From: an uncultured Pelagibacteraceae bacterium
GTDB lineage: Bacteria > Pseudomonadota > Alphaproteobacteria > Pelagibacterales > Pelagibacteraceae
Direction of reading: 5' to 3'
Length of the DNA: 64,000 nt
Assembly: GCA_902570425.1 (NCBI GenBank)
Contig: CACFYB010000001.1
Location: 1 to 64,000, forward strand
Shown here: in pieces, positions 16,031-28,384 of the stretch
Numbering within the stretch: the stretch's first letter is position 1
Layout: the number at the start of each line of letters is the position of its first letter
The notes under the pieces: model-generated
Seen by the model: the letters and a program-made list of their open reading frames with translations, nothing else
Databases searched by the model: none
What the model was told of the DNA's origin: nothing
Made by a program: the position numbers and the translations under genes

Positions 16031-17004
16031 TATTAAAATCTTTTGAAATTAATAAAATCAATCTAATAACAAATAAAATCATACTTTTTTATGGGAAAAA
16101 TGAGGGATACAAAAATGAGGAAATTAATAAAATAAAAAAAAGATTTGAAACTATTGAAAAATATGATGAAAAAAAAATCTTAGATAATATACAATCTTTT
16201 TATGAGCAACTAACAAATGAATCGCTTTTTGAAAAAGAAAAATTAATAATCATAGATCAGACATCAGATAGAATAATTAATATAATCAAAGATTTATTGG
16301 AAATGACGCTTAAAGACGTTTGGCTTATCTTAAATTCAGGAATTTTAGAAAAAAAATCTAAACTAAGAAATTTATTTGAAAAGGATAAAAAATTGATCTG
16401 TGTCCCATTTTATCCTGACACTAATGAGATCTTATTTAAAATAACACAAAACTTTTTTAAAAAAAATAAAATATTAATCTCAAATGAAAATATTAATTTT
16501 ATTATAAACAAATGCTCGGGAGATAGAGGTTATTTAATTAATGAATTAGAAAAAATCGAACTTTTTTCTTTATCAAAAAGAAATGTTTCAAACGATGAAA
16601 TTTTTAAATTGATAAACCTCACAGAAAATTTTGATATTAATGAATTAATAGATAACTGCTTAGCAAAAAATCATAAAAAAACGCTAAATATTCTTAACGA
16701 AAGCAATTTTTCTAATGAAGAATGTATTATGATTATTAGAATTTTTCTTAATAAATTAAAAAGGATATTAGAATTAACAAAACAATATCAAATCAACCAA
16801 GACTTAAATCTCACAATTAATAACGCAAAACCTCCAATATTTTGGAAAGATAAAGAAATTACCAAAAAACAGATTTGCAGATGGAAATCAAAAGAAATTG
16901 AAAAGTTAATCATAGATATAAATACTATAGAATTACAAATTAAAAAAAACTCATTCAATCCAATTAATTTAGTTTCTGACTTTATTATGGAAAAATCTCT
17001 TTAA
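16027..17004 (+). CDS. holA: DNA polymerase III delta subunit
   Basis: The delta subunit opens the beta clamp within the clamp loader. 325 residues. KIILFYGKNEGYKNEEINKI at the N-terminus replaces the usual FLxYGPDxGL segment. A central KLICVPFYPDTNE matches the family's ACYPDxx region, and SGDRGYLINELEKIELF is the counterpart of the GDxxLLxxELEKL motif. It is very lysine/asparagine/isoleucine-rich and diverged. The ATGA overlap with lptE supports the start. The stop overlaps the parB stop (TTAA at 17001-17004). Confidence 0.88.
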   Translation: MILKSFEINKINLITNKIILFYGKNEGYKNEEINKIKKRFETIEKYDEKKILDNIQSFYEQLTNESLFEKEKLIIIDQTSDRIINIIKDLLEMTLKDVWLILNSGILEKKSKLRNLFEKDKKLICVPFYPDTNEILFKITQNFFKKNKILISNENINFIINKCSGDRGYLINELEKIELFSLSKRNVSNDEIFKLINLTENFDINELIDNCLAKNHKKTLNILNESNFSNEECIMIIRIFLNKLKRILELTKQYQINQDLNLTINNAKPPIFWKDKEITKKQICRWKSKEIEKLIIDINTIELQIKKNSFNPINLVSDFIMEKSL

Positions 17005-17843
17005 TAATTATTTTTTATTACATCTATAAGTTTATTTAATTGGTCTAAATCTAGATATTCAAAAATAATTTTACCTTTATTATTTTTTTTATTTTGAATT
17101 AATACATTTAAACCAATTTTTTGTGATAACATTGTTTCTAAATCATTAATGTTTGAGTCTTTATCATTTTTAAAAAAAGGCTTATTTTTCTTAAAAATTT
17201 TTACCAGTCGCTCTGTTTGTCTTACAGAAAGTTTTTTATCTAGTATCTTATTAGCGACAAACGATGCATTATCTAAACCAACTAAAATTTTTGCATGTCC
17301 AGATGAAATTTTCTCAGAGGAAATCAATTTTAGGACATCCTCAGGCAAATTAAGTAATCTCAAGGAGTTTGTAATATAACTTCTACTTTTACCCACAAAT
17401 TTTGAAACCTTATCTTGGTCATATGAAAATTCATCAATCAATCGTTGATAACCTTTTGCTTCTTCAATGGGATTTAAGTCTTTTCTTTGTATATTTTCAA
17501 TTATCGCAAACTCTAAAGATTTAAGATCATCCGCATCTGTAATAACAACGGGTACCTCGTGTAATCCTACCTTTTGTGCTGCTAACCATCTTCTTTCTCC
17601 GGCGATAATCTCAAATTTGTTTTCGATATTATCTGATTTTCTAACTATTATAGGTTGGATTATTCCTCTTTCTTTTATTGAGCTAGTTAAATCATTCAGC
17701 CCTTCTTCATCAAAAACTTTTCTTGGTTGAAACTTATTTGGTGAAAGATCAGAAATTGGTAATTTATTAGTGTTTTTTTCTACTTTCGTTTCACCAATTA
17801 AAGAAGATAAACCTCTTCCAAGACCTTTCTTTATTTTATTCAT
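17001..17843 (-). CDS. parB: ParB, chromosome-partitioning CTPase/DNA-binding protein
   Basis: Binds parS and spreads along the origin region as a CTP-dependent clamp. 280 residues. It starts MNKIKKGLGRGLSSLIGE (the ParA-interacting N-terminus), then has NKFQPRK, a CTP-binding box with IAGERRWLAAQKVGL, ENIQRKDLNPIEEAKGYQRL, the helix-turn-helix region YDQDKVSKFVGKSRSYITNS and SGHAKIL, and a lysine-rich C-terminal dimerisation domain. It is coupled to parA by TAATG. A parS-like site lies 1.4 kb upstream within rsmG. Confidence 0.97.
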   Translation of the reverse strand: MNKIKKGLGRGLSSLIGETKVEKNTNKLPISDLSPNKFQPRKVFDEEGLNDLTSSIKERGIIQPIIVRKSDNIENKFEIIAGERRWLAAQKVGLHEVPVVITDADDLKSLEFAIIENIQRKDLNPIEEAKGYQRLIDEFSYDQDKVSKFVGKSRSYITNSLRLLNLPEDVLKLISSEKISSGHAKILVGLDNASFVANKILDKKLSVRQTERLVKIFKKNKPFFKNDKDSNINDLETMLSQKIGLNVLIQNKKNNKGKIIFEYLDLDQLNKLIDVIKNNY

Positions 17844-18637
17844 TAGGCAGCACTCCCAATTTTACCTTCCTGAATTATAAATTCATCAGTAAAATTATAA
17901 TATGATTTACTTCCAGGACAATTCTTATCATAAATCAATACTGGGACTCCATGCGAAGGTGCCTCTGATAGCCTAACATTTCTTGGAATGACTGTTTGAT
18001 AAACTTTATCCTTAAAATAATTTCTTGCCTCTTGTTCTACTTGAGAAGATAACTTATTTCTTCGATCATACATTGTTAAAAGTATTCCCTGAATTTCTAA
18101 ATCTGGGTTCAAATTATCTTTTATTCGTTCAATGGTTTTCATTAACTGAGTTAATCCTTCTAACGCAAAAAATTCAGTTTGTAATGGCACTAATAATGAG
18201 TTCGAAGAAACCAGTGCCATCACAGTTAATAAACTTAAGGAGGGCGGACAATCTATAAGGATATAATCATATAATGCTCCAGAATCCTTTAAATAAGAGG
18301 TTAATTTAGCCTTCAAAATAAAAGCTCTATCACTATCTCCAGCAGTTTCTACCTCCAGCCCTGATAAATCAACATTTGAAGTAATTAAATCTAAATTTTC
18401 AAACTTTGTTTTCTTAATCACATTTGAAACGGACATTGTTCCATTTAAAATTCCATAAATTGTTTGATCTGACTTTTCAGTATTTGATAAACCCAATCCT
18501 GTAGTAGCATTTCCTTGAGGATCCAAATCAATTACTAAAATTTTTTTGCTCTGTTGAGACAAAGCTGAAGCTAAATTAATTATTGTTGTTGTTTTACCAA
18601 CCCCCCCTTTTTGATTTATCACTGAAATAATCTTCAT
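17843..18637 (-). CDS. parA: ParA, chromosome-partitioning ATPase
   Basis: Deviant Walker-type ATPase that positions ParB-parS complexes. 264 residues. KIISVINQKGGVGKTTTIIN contains the signature lysines of the deviant Walker A loop (KGGVGKTT, 10-17), ILVIDLDPQGNATTGLG is the switch I region, and YILIDCPPSLSLLT is Walker B. The C-terminal PRNVRLSEAPSHGVPV is the canonical Soj/ParA ending. The start lies inside the rsmG stop region (4-base overlap, 18634-18637), and parB follows by TAATG, so rsmG-parA-parB form one unit. Confidence 0.97.
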   Translation of the reverse strand: MKIISVINQKGGVGKTTTIINLASALSQQSKKILVIDLDPQGNATTGLGLSNTEKSDQTIYGILNGTMSVSNVIKKTKFENLDLITSNVDLSGLEVETAGDSDRAFILKAKLTSYLKDSGALYDYILIDCPPSLSLLTVMALVSSNSLLVPLQTEFFALEGLTQLMKTIERIKDNLNPDLEIQGILLTMYDRRNKLSSQVEQEARNYFKDKVYQTVIPRNVRLSEAPSHGVPVLIYDKNCPGSKSYYNFTDEFIIQEGKIGSAA

Positions 18638-19281
18638 ATTTTTTTTTTTCGAATTTTCTTTATATTAAGTATAAATGAGTCATCACTTGTTATACTCTTT
18701 TTTTGATCATATTCTAAATCCCATTCCTTCAGAGTGTTTTTAAGAATTCTTTTTCCACTGACGCCCATAAATAAAACTATATTTTTATACTTTTTAAAAT
18801 TTTCATTAACCAAATTTAAAATTACTGGCATGGGTTTAAAAGCTCTAGACATAATTGTTCCGGTTTCTATATTTTTAACCTCAAAAATATCTTTTTGAAT
18901 TATCTCTGTGTTCAAATTTAATTTTTTTGAAACTTCTTTTAAGAAAACGCACTTATGATAACTTTTTTCATAAAGATTAACTTTCATACTTTTTTTTATC
19001 CGTTTCATAACGATAGCTATAATTAATCCAGGCATACCACCTCCTGTTCCTAAATCTGTGGTTGTATTACCATTTAAATCAATAAAATCAATAATTTGCG
19101 CAGAATCTATTAAATGTCTGTTTCTTATAACCTCTTTTTTGCTTGTTTTTTTGCTTATAATATTAATTTCCTGATTTTTTTCCAAAATCATAGAAATTAA
19201 CCCTTCAAGCTCATTACAAGTTTCACGTGAAACATTTAAATCAGAAATTTTTGAGTAAGAATTTAAAATTACATTATCCAT
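18634..19281 (-). CDS. rsmG: RsmG, 16S rRNA (guanine-N7) methyltransferase
   Basis: SAM-dependent methylation of G527 of 16S rRNA. 215 residues. NVSRET (16-21) is the well-known RsmG segment whose codons contain a parS site here. NIISKKTSKKEVIRNRHLID is the substrate region, TTDLGTGGGMPGLIIAIV the SAM-binding loop, and IMSRAFKPM the conserved SRAF motif. The TAATG junction with upstream mnmG supports the start. Some sequence is diverged and lysine-rich. Confidence 0.95.
   Translation of the reverse strand: MDNVILNSYSKISDLNVSRETCNELEGLISMILEKNQEINIISKKTSKKEVIRNRHLIDSAQIIDFIDLNGNTTTDLGTGGGMPGLIIAIVMKRIKKSMKVNLYEKSYHKCVFLKEVSKKLNLNTEIIQKDIFEVKNIETGTIMSRAFKPMPVILNLVNENFKKYKNIVLFMGVSGKRILKNTLKEWDLEYDQKKSITSDDSFILNIKKIRKKKI
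19219..19234 (-). promoter_or_regulatory. parS centromere-like site inside rsmG
   Basis: On the minus strand the 16-mer TGTTTCACGTGAAACT matches the bacterial parS consensus TGTTTCACGTGAAACA at 15 of 16 positions; the inner 14 bases form a perfect palindrome. It spans the codons for the RsmG residues NVSRET, where parS also sits in several other bacteria. It is the only such site I found in the window and lies about 8 kb from the candidate origin. Confidence 0.9.
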
Positions 19282-25263: not shown

Positions 25264-26289
25264 TTATAAGCAAGGGCATTTTGAAAATTGATTAGGACAT
25301 TGTATTTTGGGTGGATATAAATTTTCTGAAAATTTATTTTCATCTTTCTTGATAATCAGAGATGATAAAGAACCAATAAAATCAGTATTAGTGCCCAGTG
25401 CTGGAACTCTCATATAGTCTATACAGCCATTTTTTTTTGCTAATTCCTTATACTCAATATCAAGTTCAACTAATGTTTCTGAGTGTTCAGACACAAATGC
25501 AATTGGAACCAAAACTATTTTTTTTTTTAATTTCGAATTTTCTATTATTATATCCTCTGTAGAGGGCCCTATCCATTTTAAAGGACCAACCCTACTTTGA
25601 TAACTCAAAATCCAATCCAAATTACTTAAATTTAAACTTTCAACTATTTTACTTACAGATTGTTCAACCTGCCATTGATAAGGATCGCCTTTTTTAATAT
25701 TTTTTTCAGGCAAACCATGTGCAGAAAAAACCAATTTATAATTATCTAGATTATTTATTATTTTTTTTATTTCTTGAACATGACTCTTAATGAATAATTC
25801 TTCGGTAGGATAACAGCAAATAGTCGACGTTTTAACCGAATATTTATTTTTTTTACAAATATCATTCCATTCTTTTATTGATGACCCCGATGTTGCTGCG
25901 GAATACTGAGGGTATAAAGGTAATAAAATTACTTCTTCCGGTTTATAAGCTTTAACATCTGAGATAACTTTTGATGCTCTAGGATTCCAACATCTCATGA
26001 CTATGAAACATTTATACTGATTTTTTTTATCTTGATGATTTAACATTTTTTCTAGTAAGTTAGATTGATCATTGGTTAACTTTAAAATCGGTGAGGAACC
26101 GCCTAATTCTTGATAAATTTTTTTTGCTATAGGAGCTCTACGCTTTGATATTAATTTAGCTAATGGATATCTTAAAAATTTTGGTAAATTCAAAATAGCA
26201 GGATCATAAAAAAGATTAAATAAAAAGGGTTCAACATTTTCTAATCTATCAGGTCCTCCAAGGTTAAATAAGATTACAGCTTTTTTCAT
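25264..26289 (-). CDS. hemH: Ferrochelatase
   Basis: Inserts iron into protoporphyrin IX, the last step of heme synthesis. 341 residues. ILFNLGGPDRLENVEPFLFNLF at the start, then YPQYSAATSGS and the active-site FSAHGLPEKNIKKGDPYQ with the catalytic histidine. LDWILSYQSRVGPLKWIGPST and FVSEHSETLVELDIEY (with conserved His and Glu) follow. The C-terminus ends with cysteines in CPNQFSKCPCL, reminiscent of the cysteine-bearing tails in ferrochelatases that hold a 2Fe-2S cluster. The ATGA-type overlap with hemE (26286-26289) supports the start. Confidence 0.97.
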   Translation of the reverse strand: MKKAVILFNLGGPDRLENVEPFLFNLFYDPAILNLPKFLRYPLAKLISKRRAPIAKKIYQELGGSSPILKLTNDQSNLLEKMLNHQDKKNQYKCFIVMRCWNPRASKVISDVKAYKPEEVILLPLYPQYSAATSGSSIKEWNDICKKNKYSVKTSTICCYPTEELFIKSHVQEIKKIINNLDNYKLVFSAHGLPEKNIKKGDPYQWQVEQSVSKIVESLNLSNLDWILSYQSRVGPLKWIGPSTEDIIIENSKLKKKIVLVPIAFVSEHSETLVELDIEYKELAKKNGCIDYMRVPALGTNTDFIGSLSSLIIKKDENKFSENLYPPKIQCPNQFSKCPCL

Positions 26290-27290
26290 TTAAAATCTTT
26301 TACAATATTAATTAAATAATTAACTTTTTCAGGATCTGTTTCCGGTAAAATACCATGACCTAAATTAAATATATAAGGATGATTTTTGAATATATCTAAA
26401 TACTTTATTGTCTCTCTTTTGATTATTTCTTTATCAGACAATAATATTTTAGGATCTAGACCACCTTGTACAGGAATTTTTATATCTCTACAAATTTTAA
26501 TAGGATCAATATTATAATCAATATTAATTGCATCTGGTTTAACTACTTCACAATAGGTCTTATAATTTTTGATATTTCTTGGAAAACAAATAACGGGTAT
26601 ATTTAGATTTTTTACATATTCCACTAAATTTAGAGTGGGTATATATACATAATTTGGCAGATCTTTTTCTTCCAATAAACCTGCCCAACTATCAAAAATC
26701 TGGATAACATTTGCTCCATTATCAATTTGATTTTTTATATGAAGCTTTAAATATTTCTCTAGAATAATCAAAATTCTATTAATTAAAAAATCATCTTTAA
26801 AAAAATTATCTTTTAATTTTAGTTTTGGTGAATGTTTATTAAGCATATAAACTAATAAAGTCCATGGAGCTCCAACAAAACCTATCGTATTTTTATTTTC
26901 TGTAAATTTATTATTACTTACAAGATTTATGGCTTTATAAACTGGATAAATTTTTTTAACAAAATCTATTTCATCTAATTTGGAAATAGTATCTAAATTA
27001 AGATTACCTAACTGAGGTCCAAAATTTTTTTTAAATTTAACTTCTTGATTTAGCCCATAAGGGAGCATCAAAATATCTGAAAAAATTATTGCTGCATCTA
27101 ATTCAAACCTTTTTAATGGTTGCAAAGTAATTTCAGCTGCTAACTTTTCATTTAAACATAATTTTATAAAATCAGGATTTAATTTTCTTATTTCCCTAAA
27201 TTCTGGAAGATATCTGCCAGCTTGCCTCATTATCCATATAGGATTAATTGAAACATCTTTATTTTTTAAAACTTTATAAATTGGTGTCAT
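26286..27290 (-). CDS. hemE: Uroporphyrinogen III decarboxylase
   Basis: Converts uroporphyrinogen III to coproporphyrinogen III. 334 residues. PIWIMRQAGRYLPEFRE is the first URO-D signature, binding substrate carboxylates. IIFSDILMLPYGL carries the catalytic aspartate. GFVGAPWTLLVYML is the second signature, and NLGHGILPETDPEKV ends the active site. It is first of the hemE-hemH-hemJ unit running left from the candidate origin. Its start region borders the 260-base AT-rich gap, which must contain its promoter as well. Confidence 0.97.
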   Translation of the reverse strand: MTPIYKVLKNKDVSINPIWIMRQAGRYLPEFREIRKLNPDFIKLCLNEKLAAEITLQPLKRFELDAAIIFSDILMLPYGLNQEVKFKKNFGPQLGNLNLDTISKLDEIDFVKKIYPVYKAINLVSNNKFTENKNTIGFVGAPWTLLVYMLNKHSPKLKLKDNFFKDDFLINRILIILEKYLKLHIKNQIDNGANVIQIFDSWAGLLEEKDLPNYVYIPTLNLVEYVKNLNIPVICFPRNIKNYKTYCEVVKPDAINIDYNIDPIKICRDIKIPVQGGLDPKILLSDKEIIKRETIKYLDIFKNHPYIFNLGHGILPETDPEKVNYLINIVKDFK

Positions 27291-27550
27291 TAAATAATTA
27301 TATATTATTAAGTTGTTTTATTTGTAGGCCATGTGAATTATGGTAATTAAATTTTATTAACACTTTATCAACTATTTATTTATTTATTATTGCTAAATTT
27401 TTGTATTTTATTAACTTATTAATACTTCTGTATATTTGTTTTCCTCATATTTGAAAATGTTAATAAAACCCTTATTTTACAATAAAATTAAATAAAAAAT
27501 AAATTTGTTTAATTTAATTAAAATATTACAAAGATATTAACAATATATAC
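27291..27550. other. Candidate chromosomal replication origin between hemE and ppsR
   Basis: The longest gap in the window (260 bases), extremely A/T-rich and without a plausible gene. Five 9-mers resemble DnaA boxes (TTATNCACA-type, two mismatches or so): TTATTAACA 27354-27362, TTATCAACT 27365-27373, TTATTAACT 27408-27416, the reverse copy TGTTAATAA 27458-27466, and ATATTAACA 27534-27542. In Caulobacter and Rickettsia the origin lies in the same place, between hemE and the gene known as RP001 in Rickettsia, which I recall as a ppsR homologue. Genes diverge from this gap on both sides, and parA/parB/parS lie close by. Low sequence complexity makes chance boxes possible. Confidence 0.6.
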
Positions 27551-28384
27551 ATGACTAATACTTATCAAATATACTTAATTTCAGACTCAACTGGTGAAAC
27601 ATTAGACAGAATTTTTTTAGCTATAAAAGCACAATTTAAAAATATTAATTACAAAATTTTTACTTATTCATTTACTAGAACAGAAAATCAAATAGCTAAA
27701 ATATTATCTAAAGCTGAAAAAAACGAAAATTCAATTATATTATATTCCATAGTGGACAATGGTTTAGCCAAGTATCTTGCTAACAATAGTAACGAAAAAA
27801 AAATACCATGTTTTGGAATATTAGGAGAATTAATTTTAAATTTTTCAAAACTTTTAAATCAAAAGGCTTCACATATTCCAAGCGGACAGTATATTTTAAA
27901 TGAGGAATATTATGAAAAAATCGCAGCCATCCAATTTACAATGAATCATGATGATGGTAATTCATTAAAAGATATTAATAAATCTGATATTGTATTATTA
28001 GGGGTCAGCAGAACAAGCAAAACACCAACCTCAATTTACTTAGCGAACAAAGGTTATAAAACAGCAAATATTCCACTGGTAAATAAAAAATCTATACCAG
28101 ATATTTTACAGAAAAACCCTGAAGCTTGTTGTGTAATAGGATTAAGTACAGAGGCAGAAAGGCTAGTTGATATCAGAAAAAATAGAATGAACACCCTTAA
28201 AGAAAACCAAAACAAGGACTATGTTAATTTTGAAAAGATTAAGATGGAAGTCGAAGATGCCAAAAATACTTTTAAGAAGTATAAATGGCCAATGATTGAT
28301 GTCACTCGAAAATCTGTTGAGGAAACAGCAGCATCGATAATTAAAATTTATGAAATATTTTTGAATAAATCTAATGATAAATAA
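27551..28384 (+). CDS. ppsR: Pyruvate,phosphate dikinase / PEP synthase regulatory protein (DUF299)
   Basis: Bifunctional kinase/pyrophosphorylase that switches PPDK or PEP synthase off and on. 277 residues. YLISDSTGETLDRIFLA at the N-terminus, HIPSGQYILNEEYYEKIAAI in the middle, IVLLGVSRTSKTPTSIYLAN with the family P-loop, NIPLV, and the C-terminal MIDVTRKSVEETAASII. Its target enzyme is not encoded in this window. It is first in the rightward ppsR-maf-aroE-coaE-dnaQ string. The next start overlaps its end by 11 bases. Confidence 0.94.
   Translation: MTNTYQIYLISDSTGETLDRIFLAIKAQFKNINYKIFTYSFTRTENQIAKILSKAEKNENSIILYSIVDNGLAKYLANNSNEKKIPCFGILGELILNFSKLLNQKASHIPSGQYILNEEYYEKIAAIQFTMNHDDGNSLKDINKSDIVLLGVSRTSKTPTSIYLANKGYKTANIPLVNKKSIPDILQKNPEACCVIGLSTEAERLVDIRKNRMNTLKENQNKDYVNFEKIKMEVEDAKNTFKKYKWPMIDVTRKSVEETAASIIKIYEIFLNKSNDK

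Follow-up and report, generated by a model that had tools for sequence, protein, structure and literature searches.

In this Pelagibacter, chromosome replication almost certainly starts in the 260-bp gap that separates hemE from ppsR, as judged from the sequence of the gap and from the sequences of relatives. The analysis has been carried out on a stretch of 64,000 nucleotides (the window), which belongs to a genome assembly of 922 kb in 23 contigs whose ppsR relatives are found in the Pelagibacteraceae (SAR11). The original prediction had placed a candidate origin in this gap, and this location is supported by the conservation of the gap and its boxes, by the densest cluster of DnaA boxes among the stretches sampled, by synteny with Caulobacter and by corrected T/A skew together with gene orientation. 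In more than 150 relatives the matching gap keeps the same candidate DnaA sites and the same three-base repeat.

The description of the gap as the largest in the window was borne out when internal intergenic gaps were counted, the second-largest being 189 bp; longer gaps at the window ends were set aside because of the cut-off genes there. Its GC content is 14% versus 28% in the whole window, an AT content above average, as required for a Cori-type origin. The genes on both sides diverge from the gap, as had been predicted and as in Cori, with hemE on the minus strand and ppsR on the plus strand. The neighborhood of mnmG, rsmG, parA, parB, parS and rho was also confirmed: the five genes, named from sequence, are all present in the window, and the parS-like site lies 8.1 kb from the gap. 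The parS site is usually located near the origin, and within 8 kb in Caulobacter (PMC4468827). The original prediction considered this same location as established for the origins of Caulobacter and Rickettsia, and this agrees with the literature in that the Caulobacter origin, flanked by hemE and COG1806, has been experimentally mapped, while the Rickettsia origins at this place are predicted (PMC1914354).

Features of the candidate origin and of its neighborhood, from left to right (positions of the window; identities are pairwise).
Feature	Position	Strand	Evidence or remark
parB and parA	17001..18637	-	ORFs 17001-17843 and 17843-18637, named from sequence
parS-like palindrome AGTTTCACGTGAAACA, inside rsmG coding sequence	19219..19234	.	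one mismatch to TGTTTCACGTGAAACA
hemE, origin flank	26286..27290	-	ORF list; synteny PMC1914354
oriC candidate, hemE-ppsR gap	27291..27550	.	conserved length, low GC
DnaA-trio-like array TTG-TTT-TAT-TTG-TAG	27313..27327	+	T every third base, into box 1
4-base spacer GCCA	27328..27331	+	sequence unconserved, identity 0.34
DnaA box 1, TGTGAATTA (reverse TAATTCACA)	27332..27340	-	identity 0.86, 39 divergent species
DnaA box 2, TTATTAACA	27354..27362	+	22 bases from box 1 start; anchored profiles, matrix
DnaA box 3, TTATCAACT	27365..27373	+	starts 11 bases after box 2 start; anchored profiles
Further tandem box position, degenerate here, TTATTTATT	27376..27384	+	TTATTAACA or TTATTCACA in many relatives
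Earlier-listed 9-mer TTATTAACT	27408..27416	+	least conserved segment, identity 0.53; absent from most relatives
Weaker box position TTTTCCTCA (genus consensus TTATACACA)	27439..27447	+	anchored profile, alignment
DnaA box TGTTAATAA (reverse TTATTAACA)	27458..27466	-	identity 0.87
Conserved block TTTTACAA	27475..27482	.	identity 0.88
Terminal DnaA box ATATTAACA (genus TTATTAACA)	27534..27542	+	identity 0.77
ppsR (COG1806/DUF299), origin flank	27551..28384	+	ORF list; synteny PMC1914354

The length of the gap ranges from 260 to 284 bp in 137 Pelagibacter loci and from about 264 to 283 bp in loci from other genera of this family, and boxes of the form TTAT(W)(A/C)ACA occupy constant positions in the gaps of the relatives. 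Pairwise identities, calculated among 39 species less than 80% alike, reached 0.86-0.94 at box 1, at the 27458 box and at the T positions of the trios, compared with 0.53-0.65 in the segments between them; since the relatives share ancestry, it is this contrast within the gap, and not the raw percentages, that counts as evidence. The earlier reading overlooked box 1, the most conserved box of the gap, and the trinucleotide element that adjoins it. The genus consensus of box 1 is TGTGAATAA, the reverse of which is TTATTCACA, and the window copy reads TGTGAATTA. Anchored profiles revealed that tandem boxes stand 22, 33 and 44 bases beyond box 1 in the genus. The 27458-type box precedes the ppsR start by 93 or 94 bp in 129 of the 131 anchored species, and the terminal box ends 8 bases before this start. 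Conservation across relatives, which had been proposed as a check, was found for four of the five 9-mers listed initially and not for the 9-mer at 27408, which is probably not a functional box and may well have originated by chance. The block TTTTACAA, 17 bases after the start of the 27458 box, is as conserved as the DnaA boxes and may form part of a hemE promoter on the minus strand. In a second family of the order, a ppsR match was absent from the eight genomes analyzed, and DnaA was present in the three that were checked.

The basal unwinding system (BUS) described in the literature consists of a DnaA box, a spacer and DnaA-trios with the consensus 3'-GAT-5' (PMC8287927, PMC6669920). A trinucleotide register that runs into box 1 was found in the SAR11 gap, with T at positions -7, -10, -13, -16 and -19 from the box in 100, 99, 99, 99 and 95% of 131 species, respectively, and A at -6, -9 and -15 in more than 90%, the genus consensus showing TA at trios 1, 2 and 4 in this same proportion of species. 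The complete set of five T occurs in 93% of the species and in the window copy, versus 1.7% of shuffles, and runs of three TAN occur in 56% of the species versus 9% of shuffles. Within the trios, pairwise identity is 0.94 for the first T and 0.69 for the middle A. The box lies within the 16 bases of the trios that the published rule allows (PMC8287927), the spacer being 4 bases long. The window copy does not contain the three or more consecutive NAN trios of the published rule, its longest run being one, with a middle A in two of its five trios; this rule discriminates poorly here, because it is passed by 65% of the genus sequences and by 52% of their shuffles. A search for the trio-box pattern produced 59 matches in 58 of 119 genomes, versus 9 for the reversed control, and nearly all the matches with a known ppsR position adjoin this gene. 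An off-site match, TCTTAATTTTAATATTAATTGTTAACTAAG, recurs in several genomes, and in one of them (G004, C5:99653-99682) it is located away from hemE-ppsR. A coding cause of the three-base periodicity was rejected: the distance from hemE to box 1 is 37-42 bases, the frames differ and the gap is full of stops. Other Alphaproteobacteria often show a similar element in the same gap, such as GTAGTAGTTGTTTATCCC-TGTGAATAACGG and GGAAGTAGAGGTAGTGGATGCC-TGTGGATAACGG, and this likeness, found by a loose search, is suggestive.

DnaA binding, strand opening and a division of labor between the boxes may be inferred from this arrangement. Box 1 would be the DnaA anchor, and the binding of DnaA to the AT-shifted boxes at 27354, 27365, 27439, 27458 and 27534 would be weaker and cooperative. 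A DnaA filament starting at box 1 would extend to the left on one strand and cover the T-periodic trinucleotides at 27313-27327, leading to the opening of the very AT-rich stretch adjoining hemE, where the helicase would be loaded. We regard this explanation as a whole, with the gap as oriC, box 1 as anchor, a leftward filament over the trinucleotides and opening beside hemE, as very probable.

It is fairly unlikely that the gap is an origin opened through a T-rich unwinding element of the E. coli type rather than through B. subtilis-style DnaA-trios, and the evidence on this point comes both from the DNA and from the protein. The window reads TTGTTTTATTTGTAG, which contains TTGT and TTATTT, motifs that E. 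coli requires in single-stranded form (PMC5742627), and the lower conservation of the middle A with respect to the first T would also fit a T-rich element. The same applies to Asn187, which in B. subtilis DnaA recognizes the middle A of each trio (PMC10721633), because its equivalent is Tyr in all 42 DnaA proteins of the SAR11 family. However, the element keeps a strict three-base register, as in trios, with the TA dinucleotides and the excess of three-TAN runs indicated above, and the Asn187 equivalent is Tyr or Phe in 30 of 30 DnaA proteins from other Alphaproteobacteria, so that this change is class-wide and was rejected as a SAR11 invention. The residue Arg202 of B. subtilis DnaA is likewise replaced by Lys throughout the class. 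A link between Tyr at the Asn187 position and the relaxed middle A may be hypothesized. As a tentative possibility, SAR11 could use a variant trio code with the first T, instead of the middle A, as its constant base; this code would be read by the alphaproteobacterial DnaA pocket with Tyr at the Asn187 position, and an unchanged domain IV would read AT-shifted boxes of low affinity.

The dnaA gene is located on another contig in this genome; in the complete relative G012, it lies at a distance of about 64 kb from the gap. The contacts of E. coli DnaA with its box have been described (PMC5742627), and alignment revealed that the box-reading residues match those of E. coli DnaA in the DNA complex 1j1v, the equivalents of R399, D433, H434, T435 and T436 being identical in 45 of 45 Pelagibacterales DnaA proteins. 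An altered box specificity was rejected, as these domain IV contact residues are identical. The proposal of an AT-shifted SAR11 box was thus correct for the sites and not for the DnaA reading head, which is unchanged, and with unchanged box-reading residues the AT-shifted boxes probably represent weak binding sites of an ordinary DnaA rather than the sign of a new specificity.

A search for a skew minimum had also been proposed. Raw GC skew in the window and in sampled stretches of G012 was dropped, since it follows the gene strand and is unusable here, and GC skew at fourfold sites was too weak for placing a break. T/A skew at fourfold sites, corrected for gene strand, was determined in spaced stretches of complete relatives. 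In G012, the best-sampled relative, the best break on a 10-kb grid was found at 1.26 Mb and the gap is at 1.262 Mb, positions from 1.24 to 1.29 Mb fitting nearly as well; a second break appeared at about 0.735 Mb. The residual decreased from 693 with no break to 639 at the best grid point and to 636 with one break fixed at the gap. In this genome the strand composition changes at the gap as in a Cori-type origin; in G094 a weaker break was found nearby (1.14 Mb versus 1.155 Mb for the gap), and in G157 there was no such signal, neither corrected skew nor gene orientation singling out the gap. At fourfold sites in G012, A exceeds T on the strand presumed to be leading, a polarity contrary to the usual one. 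When the gap is taken as origin, 64-66% of the coding length lies in the leading orientation in the three complete genomes, in all of which gene orientation alone gave broad maxima. Neither of the two refuting outcomes named in the original prediction came about: the boxes are conserved, and in the best-sampled genome the corrected skew changes at the gap. A search of G012 with a gammaproteobacterial consensus detected no dif site, and the absence of a match to this consensus is uninformative.

The gap could also be only a regulatory region shared by hemE and ppsR, with the 9-mers as transcriptional sites for DnaA or another regulator and the origin elsewhere, and this is very unlikely. Promoters must indeed lie within the gap, given that both genes diverge from it, and the block TTTTACAA could be one of their elements, but promoters and an origin can coexist in one gap. 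In addition, no other sampled stretch equals the gap in boxes: in about 640 kb sampled from G012 it has four matrix sites, the most of any sampled stretch, and the dnaA loci have at most one each. Trinucleotide periodicity adjoining a box is a signature of origins and not of promoters, and both the G012 skew break at the gap and the established origin synteny also argue against a purely regulatory region.

The five 9-mers of the original prediction (27354, 27365, 27408, 27458 in reverse and 27534) were all found in place, and the core TTAWYAAC attributed to them is present in four, the site at 27534 having A as its first base. This core occurs four times in the gap versus 0.35 in dinucleotide shuffles, and 32 times in the whole window versus 28 in shuffles, without enrichment. 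A scan with a weight matrix built from the boxes of other species detected five sites in the gap versus 0.87 in shuffles, one of 500 shuffles reaching five, and identified the gap as the top-scoring 270-bp stretch of the window. In the 137 Pelagibacter gaps, the mean was 5.3 matrix sites versus 0.97 in shuffled sequences. Several DnaA boxes are clustered in the gap, as in a Cori-type origin. A simple tandem-box pattern, TTATNNACA-N2-4-TTATNNACW, was dropped as too strict, with matches near control level. The reservation that such 9-mers arise easily in AT-rich DNA holds for the window as a whole, as its counts indicate, but the probability that those of the gap are chance products is practically negligible, since none of 1000 shuffles reached its four cores and conservation across divergent species extends to four of the five listed positions.

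In the ocean, the SAR11 bacteria rank among the most abundant cells. With a base-level map of their origin, growth rates can be estimated against a fixed zero point from the replication coverage in seawater metagenomes, and the many natural SAR11 variants constitute a large comparative set for the DnaA unwinding code outside Bacillus. Literature searches retrieved no description of a SAR11 origin; predictions in databases such as DoriC may exist.

The hemE-ppsR gap is a well-supported origin of an expected kind and not a new system. It resembles Caulobacter crescentus Cori and the predicted Rickettsia origins in the hemE and COG1806 (ppsR) flanks, a parS site at about 8 kb, an AT-rich gap and several weak boxes, and Cori also relies on weak DnaA boxes (PMC4468827). 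Cori is about 380-400 bp long versus 260-284 bp in SAR11, and the SAR11 boxes differ from Cori-type boxes mainly at positions 5-6. CtrA and IHF sites like those of Cori were not evident as conserved in the SAR11 alignment. A DnaA box, a short spacer and repeated 5'-TAN-3' running into the box are shared with the B. subtilis BUS (PMC6669920, PMC8287927), which has a co-oriented pair of boxes, whereas a single conserved box stands beside the trios in SAR11. The SAR11 trios also differ in that their most constant base is the first T, with a relaxed middle A, and SAR11 DnaA carries Tyr and Lys at the positions of Asn187 and Arg202, respectively. With E. coli oriC the gap has in common a better box accompanied by several low-affinity boxes, and the domain IV contact residues are identical, but location and neighbors are different and, in contrast to oriC, the window gap contains no perfect TTATNCACA. 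A trinucleotide register is kept in SAR11, whereas E. coli needs the TTGT and TTATT(T) motifs instead (PMC5742627).
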